A stretch of 35,975 nucleotides of DNA. Source: Methylomonas sp. GTDB taxonomy: Bacteria > Pseudomonadota > Gammaproteobacteria > Methylococcales > Methylomonadaceae. A program made the translations under genes and the position numbers. The stretch covers positions 1-35,975 of the forward strand of contig JALSLS010000417.1 in NCBI GenBank assembly GCA_026988195.1, in the 5' to 3' direction. The notes beneath the pieces were generated by a model. That model was not told the DNA's origin. It saw only the letters and a program-made list of their open reading frames with translations, and ran no database searches. Shown here piece by piece: positions 14,950 to 35,103 of this stretch. The first letter of the stretch is position 1, and the number at the start of each line of letters is the position of its first letter.

Positions 14950-15001
14950 GTTTGTCTATCACTATGTCTTTTATTTTGATAGACCCCTTCAATTGATCTT
15001 A

Positions 15002-15214
15002 AGGAACGAGGATTCAATAATACCCAAGTCTGACTTGTCTTTTGGCTCCATAGGCATGCTAGAAAAACCGTTACGTAGCTTGCTATGGTCGCAACCAGCA
15101 TCCTGCTTCAAGCGACACTTGCACATCCATGTGCTTCGCGCCTGTTTCAGCGCCTTGCTATTGACAAAAAACAGCAGCTTATAAATTCCGCATCCGTGAC
15201 CGCGCGAAGTATAT
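15002..15214. repeat. Chimeric palindromic element (type-A left arm, apical insert, type-B right arm)
   Basis: 15000..15068 is identical to 16761..16829 (69 bp); about 15137..15214 matches the right half of the element at 34938..35103 (gcgcctgtttcag..cttgctat.gacaaaaa.cagcagcttataaattccgcatccgtgaccgcgcgaagtatat). Confidence 0.85.
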
Positions 15215-15266: not shown

Positions 15267-16097
15267 TTAACTTTGTTGCTGCAAATGTACATCCATTTGC
15301 GGATAAGGAATATTTAAACCTTCCTGAGGGAAGGTTTTATAAACATTCTCATTCATTGCAAAATATACACCCCAGTAATCTGCTGCATTAACCCAAGCCC
15401 GCACTGTAAAGTTGACTGAGCTATCAGCTAATTCAGAAACTGCAATAAACACTTCAGGGTCTTTTAAAATCCTAGAGTCAGCATCACATAAATTTCTAAT
15501 CACTTGTTTTGCTTTATCAACATCATCGCCATAGCCAATACCAATAGTCCAATCGACACGACGTTTTTCTTCAGTTGAAAAGTTAGTCATTGCACCCGTT
15601 GATAGACCACCATTTGGAATAATGACAGTTTTATTATCAGGTGTTTTTAAAATAGTATTAAAAATCTGGATCTCTTTAACTGAGCCAATAAAACCTTGAG
15701 CTTCTATTACATCTCCGGCTTTAAAGGGTTTAAAGATAAGGATCATCACGCCACCAGCAAAATTCTGTAAAGTGCCAGAAAGTGCCATGCCAACAGCTAA
15801 ACCTGCTGCACCTAAAATAGCAATAAAGGATGTCATTTCAATGCCTAGCATACCCAGTACACTAATCACTAACATCACTTTAAGAAGCGAGCTAATTAAG
15901 CTTTTTAGAAAGGGCTGTAATGTAGGGTCAACTTTGCTTTTGTTCATGACTTTACCAACGCCATTAATTAAAGCTTTTATTATCCACCCCCCAATAATCC
16001 ATACGGCAAGCGCACCTAATATTTTTGGCCCGTATTCTAGGCCGATATTAGTTGCTTGAGTTAATATTTCATTAGGGTCGATATCTTCAGGGTTCAT
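15267..16097 (-). CDS. mscS: Small-conductance mechanosensitive channel (MscS family)
   Basis: LGAAGLAVGMALSGTLQNFAGGVMILIFKPFKAGDVIEAQG, TIIPNGGLSTGAMTNFS pattern. Confidence 0.93.
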   Translation of the reverse strand: MNPEDIDPNEILTQATNIGLEYGPKILGALAVWIIGGWIIKALINGVGKVMNKSKVDPTLQPFLKSLISSLLKVMLVISVLGMLGIEMTSFIAILGAAGLAVGMALSGTLQNFAGGVMILIFKPFKAGDVIEAQGFIGSVKEIQIFNTILKTPDNKTVIIPNGGLSTGAMTNFSTEEKRRVDWTIGIGYGDDVDKAKQVIRNLCDADSRILKDPEVFIAVSELADSSVNFTVRAWVNAADYWGVYFAMNENVYKTFPQEGLNIPYPQMDVHLQQQS

Positions 16098-16552: not shown

Positions 16553-16762
16553 GATGAGTGTCCTTTTTATAGATTAAAAAATAATAATGGAAAGATAAAT
16601 TTGATGTAAAGATACCATAATCTCCTAACAACTAGGTTGATTTTATTTTAAATATTAAAATTATTAGTTGGGTAGTATCGTAGTTGATCAAATAAAGTTA
16701 TTGATGATAATCAATGTTAACTGAATATAATATGAATGTTGATAGATGTTCAGGTTGGGCTA

Positions 16763-16974
16763 AGGAACGAGGATTCAATAATACCCAAGTCTGACTTGTC
16801 TTTTGGCTCCATAGGCATGCTAGAAAAACAGTTACGAAGCACAGGGATGTGCAAGTGTCACTTGAAGCAGGATGCTGTTTGTGACCGTTGCCCGCTATGC
16901 GCCTGTTTTTCTAACACGCCTATGAAGCCAAAACCCTGAACCATACTTTCGGGTATTATTAAATCCTCGTTCCT
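16763..16974. repeat. Type-A palindromic element, apparently complete (212 bp)
   Basis: AGGAACGAGGATT.AATAATACCC...GGGTATTATT.AAATCCTCGTTCCT terminal inverted repeat; inner arms TTTTGGCTCCATAGGCATGCTAGAAAAACAG / CTGTTTTTCTAACACGCCTATGAAGCCAAAA. Confidence 0.9.
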
Positions 16975-23814: not shown

Positions 23815-23850
23815 AGGAACGTGCATGAAACAACTTACCGATTTCTAACT
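23815..23850. repeat. Half of a type-C hairpin element abutting the slt stop
   Basis: aggaacgtgcatgaaacaacttaccgatttctaact compared with the type-C arm aggaatgtgcatgaaataacttcccggtttctaactt (reverse complement of 31841..31805). Confidence 0.7.
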
Positions 23851-26760: not shown

Positions 26761-26874
26761 TGCCATTAAGTTAAGATAACAGGTAGGATGTGCTGAGGAA
26801 CGAAGCGCATCGTTTACAGCTGATGCGCTTCCTGTCGTCAGCACATCCTACAGCAAATTGCTTAACTTAATGAT
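26761..26874. repeat. Type-D palindromic element, copy 1
   Basis: CATTAAGTTAAG...GTAGGATGTGCTGAgg..GAAGCGCATC-gtttacagct-GATGCGCTTC..CAGCACATCCTAC...CTTAACTTAATG. Confidence 0.88.
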
Positions 26875-31679: not shown

Positions 31680-31841
31680 AGGAACGTGTATGGAATAACT
31701 TCCCGAAATTATAACGTAGGATTTTTGTTTCAGGTGGAATGATCTCATGAGGCGCATAGCAAGCTACGCAACGAATGAGATCATTCCATCTGGAGCAAAA
31801 AGACAAGTTAGAAACCGGGAAGTTATTTCATGCACATTCCT
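31680..31841. repeat. Type-C palindromic element, apparently complete (162 bp)
   Basis: AGGAACGTGTATGGAATAACTTCCCG...GGTGGAATGATCTCAT - gaggcgcatagcaagctacgcaacga - ATGAGATCATTCCATCT...CGGGAAGTTATTTCATGCACATTCCT. Confidence 0.92.
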
Positions 31842-33217: not shown

Positions 33218-33280
33218 AGAACGAGCATGAAACAAAAATCCTACGTTATAATTTCGGGAAGTTATTCCATACACGTTCCT
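33217..33280. repeat. Internally deleted type-C element abutting the tilS stop
   Basis: 33228..33283 is the exact reverse complement of 31677..31732 (56 bp); left end aagaacgagcatgaaa resembles the type-C terminus aggaatgtgcatgaaa. Confidence 0.88.
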
Positions 33281-33776: not shown

Positions 33777-33830
33777 ATACTTTCCACCGTAAAGTTAATC
33801 CACGCCCCCATTGTTCCCGCGCTGGAACGA

Positions 33831-33952
33831 CACTGCCATTAAGTTAAGCAATTTGCTGTAGGATGTGCTGACGATAGGAAGCGCATCAGCTGTAAACGAT
33901 GCGCTTCCTATCGTCAGCACATCCTACCTGTGATCTTAACTTAATGGCAGTG
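33831..33952. repeat. Type-D palindromic element, copy 2 (122 bp, inverted relative to copy 1)
   Basis: CACTGCCATTAAGTTAAG caatttgct GTAGGATGTGCTGACGATAGGAAGCGCATC agctgtaaac GATGCGCTTCCTATCGTCAGCACATCCTAC ctgtgat CTTAACTTAATGGCAGTG. Confidence 0.95.
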
Positions 33953-34033
33953 ATGCTAGGGCGAGGGAATTATTTAGGTGGTTGGTATACAAGTATAAGT
34001 TAATTATCCAGGTCGTATGTCCCTATACACTGG

Positions 34034-34937: not shown

Positions 34938-35103
34938 ATATACTTCGCGCGGTCACGACTGCAGATTTCTAACCGCTGAGTTTTTGCCAATAGCTGCGGT
35001 GCTGAAACAGTTGCGTAGCTTGCTATGCGCCTGTTTCAGCACCTTGCTATCGACAAAAATCAGCAGCTTATAAATTCCGCATCCGTGACCGCGCGAAGTA
35101 TAT
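34938..35103. repeat. Type-B palindromic element (166 bp)
   Basis: ATATACTTCGCGCGGTCACG ... CGTGACCGCGCGAAGTATAT perfect 20-bp TIR; apical GGTGCTGAAACAG-ttgcgtagcttgctatgcgc-CTGTTTCAGCACC. Confidence 0.92.

Follow-up and report, generated by a model that had tools for sequence, protein, structure and literature searches.

At positions 15003-15211 of the window, by which the whole analysed stretch of 35,975 nt is meant, lies a repeat whose left and right arms belong to two different families of hairpin elements, A and B, and it raises the question whether the two halves are genuinely joined and, if so, how they came together. The element is confirmed as a real A-B fusion, and it probably represents a recombination junction at which an A copy and an insert-bearing B copy, both of them non-autonomous MITE-like hairpins, were joined within a short tip that they have in common.

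The source is a draft genome of 3.43 Mb in 497 contigs, of which 1.32 Mb, in contigs picked for having matches, were read base by base. Five families of hairpin repeats, termed A to E, feature a common 22-nt tip (GTTRCGWAGC-NN-GCTATGCGCC) and differ in their arms: identity between the arm consensus sequences of different families amounts to 44-65%, and the longest aligned identical run in the arms measures 4-12 nt, so that the tip is the longest stretch common to the families. The tip pattern GTTRCGWAGCNNGCTATGCGCC yielded 227 matches genome-wide at up to 3 mismatches and its reversed control yielded none, which excludes chance. The central dinucleotide of the tip is CC in A (10/10), TT in B (46/48), TG in D and mostly TT in C, and some A, B and D copies carry a 51-nt insert to the left or right of the tip.

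With regard to target sites, identical 3-bp flanks, nearly all TWA, border 89 of 97 complete A, C, D and E copies, while nearly all complete B copies show TA at both ends. The A to E repeats are therefore MITE-like insertions that fall into two target classes, TWA and TA. Like the bacterial MITEs that have been reviewed (PMC10969869), they are non-coding, measure about 159-210 bp, possess long inverted repeats by which the parents fold end to end, generate short target duplications and occur in many dispersed copies. The families here are unlike those MITEs in that several of them combine one conserved tip with arm-swapped hybrids. No parent insertion sequence with matching ends was found in the 1.32 Mb, nor was any transposase detected between facing element ends 0.5-3.5 kb apart in the same sequence, where the longer reading frames look cellular by eye. 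Two facing-end pairs of equal length (2098 bp) were considered as a parent transposon, but the equality is a coincidence and their contents look like ordinary genes. A search of the window against Rfam returned no family at gathering score, and B and C elements had no match in a plasmid collection.

Several variants of these repeats were observed alongside the complete copies. Partial C elements occur in the window at 33228-33279, where an outer right arm following tilS is identical to that of the C copy preceding tilS, and at 23816-23850, which comprises the first 35 nt of a left arm and has many near-identical short matches in the related genome G003. C elements devoid of the tip, exemplified by L245:5535-5658 and similarly present in L135, L101 and L145, have arms that overlap by a short repeat around CATTC; they reflect either repeated deletion at the hairpin or the spreading of a deleted form. 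Another C element, at position 264 of L119 on the minus strand, bears a roughly 100-nt palindromic insertion beside the tip. A further palindromic family (GATGCGCTTCC...GTAGGATGTGCTGA) is represented in the window at 26761-26872 and 33814-33969 by inverted copies that are 99% complementary over 71 nt. Beyond the source genus, the 22-nt tip occurs in large numbers in several further genera of the family (G013, G022, G039, G061, G090 and others), with 67 matches in G013, some of them exact, and it is hence older than the source genus; at the 3 mismatches allowed in this search of relatives, a few matches per genome correspond to the chance level. The 51-nt insert is found in G023 (C2:96218-96363) as three tandem copies at 51-bp spacing, which identifies it as a repeat of its own.

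The layout of the window element is compiled in Table 1 together with complete copies of its parent families and of family C.

Table 1. Parts of the A-B fusion and complete hairpin elements in the window (positions in the window)
Feature	Position	Strand	Remarks
TAA, left copy of the A-type 3-bp target duplication	15000..15002	.	other end without matching copy
Family A left arm	15003..15068	+	matches the A consensus, as well as several A copies, at 66/66 positions
Tip core, GTTACGTAGC-TT-GCTATG	15070..15087	+	A-like to 15073, B-like from 15080
51-nt insert right of the tip	15088..15138	+	same insert in DD, BB and AD copies; AA and DD copies have it on the opposite side
Family B right arm	15143..15211	+	67/69 nt agree with the B consensus (97%)
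TA, B-type 2-bp target duplication, right end	15212..15213	.	TA/TA flanks in nearly every complete B copy
Complete A-A element	16764..16973	+	same 51-nt insert, left of the tip; TAA both sides
Complete B-B element	34940..35101	+	22-nt tip without insert; TA both sides
Complete C-C element (type C of the original prediction)	31681..31840	-	.

The original prediction had described a type-A left arm joined to a type-B right arm, and the comparison bears this out. Positions 15000-15079 are 98% identical to 16761-16840, with complete identity over 15000-15068, and positions 15132-15214 are 94% identical to 35021-35103. It was likewise correct in stating that neither end has a palindromic partner, as no hairpin fold is detectable in the fusion (z -0.9), whereas end-to-end folding is seen in the window's A copy (z -8.8) and B copy (z -11.1). 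Its placement of the switch around a shared core can be narrowed to the CGTAGC at 15074-15079, since A-specific sequence reaches to 15073 and B-specific sequence begins at 15080. What separates the arms, however, is not the core alone: it is the 22-nt tip, whose right side holds the 51-nt insert, and the remainder of the tip (CGCC) follows the insert and extends to about 15142.

A mosaic of this kind could in principle be produced by a short-read assembler joining an A copy and a B copy of different loci via the repeated tip. In favour of such an assembly chimera, several of the 497 contigs end inside hairpin elements, and a misjoin would likewise leave the element between unrelated flanks that lack a target duplication. 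An exact dovetail of fixed length is the mark of an assembler's final word length, and four pairs of contigs here overlap at their ends by 127 nt exactly, which suggests a final word length of 127. The longest exact match of the fusion elsewhere in the 1.32 Mb compared is only 82 nt (15074-15155, to the B copy in contig C377), and none of the matches extends from one arm across the tip into the other. In view of these two lengths, the assembler is unlikely to have made a misjoin at the tip. Moreover, the genome holds no near-identical full copy, the next best being 97% identical over 148 nt (contig C333) and 80% identical (contig C413), and the fusion has bases of its own, namely a C at 15069 that is shared by 1 of 12 A copies and an A at position 29 of the B arm, one of the two positions at which this arm departs from the commonest B base, which is shared by 1 of 48 B copies. 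Taken as a whole, an assembly error carries little probability for the window element. The element in C413 has an exact stretch of 129 nt in common with the A copy at 16760 of the window; its left flank could therefore in principle be misjoined, but its A-B switch could not.

The window element is not the only one of its kind. The census of the 1.32 Mb comprises 180 paired elements (72 CC, 53 BB, 28 DD, 15 AA, 8 EE, 2 AB, 1 AD and 1 DC), of which 176 have matching arms and four are heterotypic: the A-B fusions of the window and of contig C413, an A-D element in C333 and a D-C element in C286. Painting of the elements quarter by quarter revealed switches only between the inner left and the inner right arm and none inside an arm of any complete, undecayed copy; other paintings that appeared mixed derived from copies truncated at contig ends or decayed and were left out. 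With switch points placed by exact matches and family-typical bases, the A-D switch lies in the left half of the tip (GTTACGTAGC), that of C413 between the CC centre and the TGTTT of the right arm, and the D-C switch in TGAGAT, about 3-9 nt outside the tip. Hence, the anticipated clustering of breakpoints at the apical core applies to all four switches, which fall in the tip or at most 10 nt away, and the scattering along the arms that would have spoken against it was not encountered. If breakpoints were uniformly distributed, four of four within about 34 nt of about 160 nt would be expected with a probability of roughly 0.002, which is a rough figure. Nevertheless, because the tip is the longest shared stretch, any process in need of homology would put breakpoints there, and the clustering does not identify the mechanism. 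A fifth join, between a D arm and a C arm, is devoid of the core (C302; 9523-9653 of L129), and a possible further D-C copy is cut off by the end of contig C17.

One specific candidate for such a mechanism is a site-specific recombinase that exchanges arms at the tip, the 22 nt being read as a pair of 10-bp half sites that enclose a 2-bp centre. The half sites are indeed imperfect inverted repeats flanking a central dinucleotide, conservation of the tip extends to families that differ in their ends, and the proximity of every switch to it would be in accordance with this reading. On the other hand, the central dinucleotides of the parents differ (CC in A, mostly TT in B and C, TG in D), so that joining by a serine recombinase, which calls for a matching centre, is not expected; switches occur on both sides of the centre and, in the D-C element, beyond the tip altogether; and no recombinase gene is tied to the hairpin elements. 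Recombinase-mediated exchange is accordingly considered very unlikely.

The arrangement in question might also constitute a family in its own right, which had been named as an outcome at odds with a chimera. Full-length A-B elements occur twice in the source genome and in none of 100 relatives, as judged from the best seven candidates scored per genome; the arrangement is accordingly no conserved family of its own. In these relatives only A-like left arms, B-like right arms or the insert match, B-like arms being the most widespread. The two A-B copies differ from each other in the tip, with the insert on opposite sides and a centre of TT as opposed to CC, and they look like separate events rather than copies of one hybrid. 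No full match to a reciprocal B-A element was obtained in the source genome among the 40 of 308 candidates scored, a search in which an insert-bearing B-A element could be split and thus missed.

The flanks provide information on whether one insertion or two gave rise to each fusion. Both A-B copies have TAA to the left of the A end and TA to the right of the B end, with no duplication common to the two sides; in the window element the flanking triplets are TAA and TAT. As these flanks belong to different target classes, neither A-B copy can have arisen by a single insertion; each gives the impression of a join between two separate insertion sites. For C413, sequence collinear with the left flank is present in G007, G008, G001 and partly in G013, up to about 120 nt before the element. 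In G007, the right flank lies at C32:21516, 21.5 kb from the contig start, and the left flank on C28, and the C413 copy is best read as a junction of two loci. For the window, the hydantoinase gene of the left flank matches G007, the mscS gene of the right flank has a close homologue only in G003, and the cytochrome b561 gene is absent from G003; since its flanks were thus not placed in one relative, it is the missing target duplication by itself that points to a fusion of two loci there. The MscS-type channel gene (15267-16097), the close homologue of which is confined to G003 among 60 relatives, has roughly 60-80% identical homologues in named records of Gammaproteobacteria and Bacteroidota and was probably acquired horizontally.

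The hybrids within one target class behave differently, and they are pertinent to the alternative that the A-B element was already fused when it transposed to the window site as a unit. The A-D element of C333 has TAA on both sides and a corresponding empty site in G003, where the flanks lie 15 bp apart, and the D-C element of C286 also has TAA on both sides, with flanks collinear in G003, G007, G008 and G001. Either these two moved as hybrids or they arose when a deletion fused two copies that had inserted next to each other. Same-class hybrids may therefore move, although two matching TAA flanks would turn up by chance in about half of all cases and lend weak support by themselves. For the A-B copies, insertion as a unit is improbable, because their ends belong to different target classes, matching duplications are missing and the differences in the tip do not suggest descent from one mobile hybrid.

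A last alternative dispenses with the joining of two distant loci and invokes template switching at the hairpin loop during one round of replication, in effect a gene conversion of the right half. While the copies are long hairpins, and switches over short homologies of 6-16 nt would fit a replication error, the B sequence continues precisely up to the B end with its TA, and a local conversion would require a second switch at that very point, although A and B have next to nothing in common there. Such a local event is hardly to be expected; the missing duplication of the A-B copies and the split synteny of C413 point to a fusion of two sites rather than to a local copying error. Of the recombination or template switching at the loop that had been proposed from the outset, the former, as recombination of two types at the shared tip, is well supported by three further fusions and by the lack of switches inside arms, whereas the latter is conceivable but unnecessary.

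According to the preferred reading as a junction of an A and a B copy, the left arm and left flank would derive from an A insertion site and the right arm and right flank from a B site, the B parent having already carried the 51-nt insert in its tip, as does the copy in C377. The exchange might proceed via the short homology of the tip by single-strand annealing, by slipped or switched replication or by homologous recombination of low efficiency. As no reciprocal B-A element was found among the candidates scored, the simplest route would be a deletion that joined an A copy to an equally oriented B copy. Neighbours of different families in the same orientation make up 17 of 72 neighbour pairs, and element copies 0-15 bp apart occur.

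Mosaicism of MITEs is already known, and the arm swap at a hairpin tip is a further variant of it. Prokaryotic MITEs are treated as sites of homologous recombination in a review in which the words "chimeric" and "mosaic" do not appear (PMC10969869). TIMEs, the MITEs of Tn3 transposons, form mosaic elements (PMC4133298, PMC13367494) and resemble the present fusions as hybrid miniature elements for which an exchange between copies inside the element has been proposed. They differ in that their ends are of the Tn3 type, their duplications measure 5 bp and some of them possess a res site; the hairpins described here have other ends, duplications of 3 bp (TWA) or 2 bp (TA) and no res-like site in evidence. 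The BOX elements of Streptococcus are modular repeats as well, and those of S. suis possess different end modules around the same middle module (PMC3049150), but, compared by description, BOX varies mainly in the number of boxB units, whereas here arms of different families are fused via the tip. Similarly, REP/BIME and the Neisseria mosaic repeats (named in PMC3049150) are intergenic palindromic mosaics that combine short units, in contrast to the single long hairpin per copy with target duplications seen here. Searches of an open-access library brought up no description of hairpin MITEs with swapped arms that meet at a common tip.

With respect to the evolution of these repeats, a bolder proposition, which at present must be regarded as rather doubtful, holds that the tip is a lasting hot spot of recombination and that the exchange of arms builds new MITE families, including families of another target class. 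In any case, hybrid MITEs with mapped switch points are a direct record of short-repeat recombination in a bacterium, fusions with ends of different target-duplication classes mark rearrangement junctions without recourse to a reference genome, and the shared tip offers a testable route to new MITE families.
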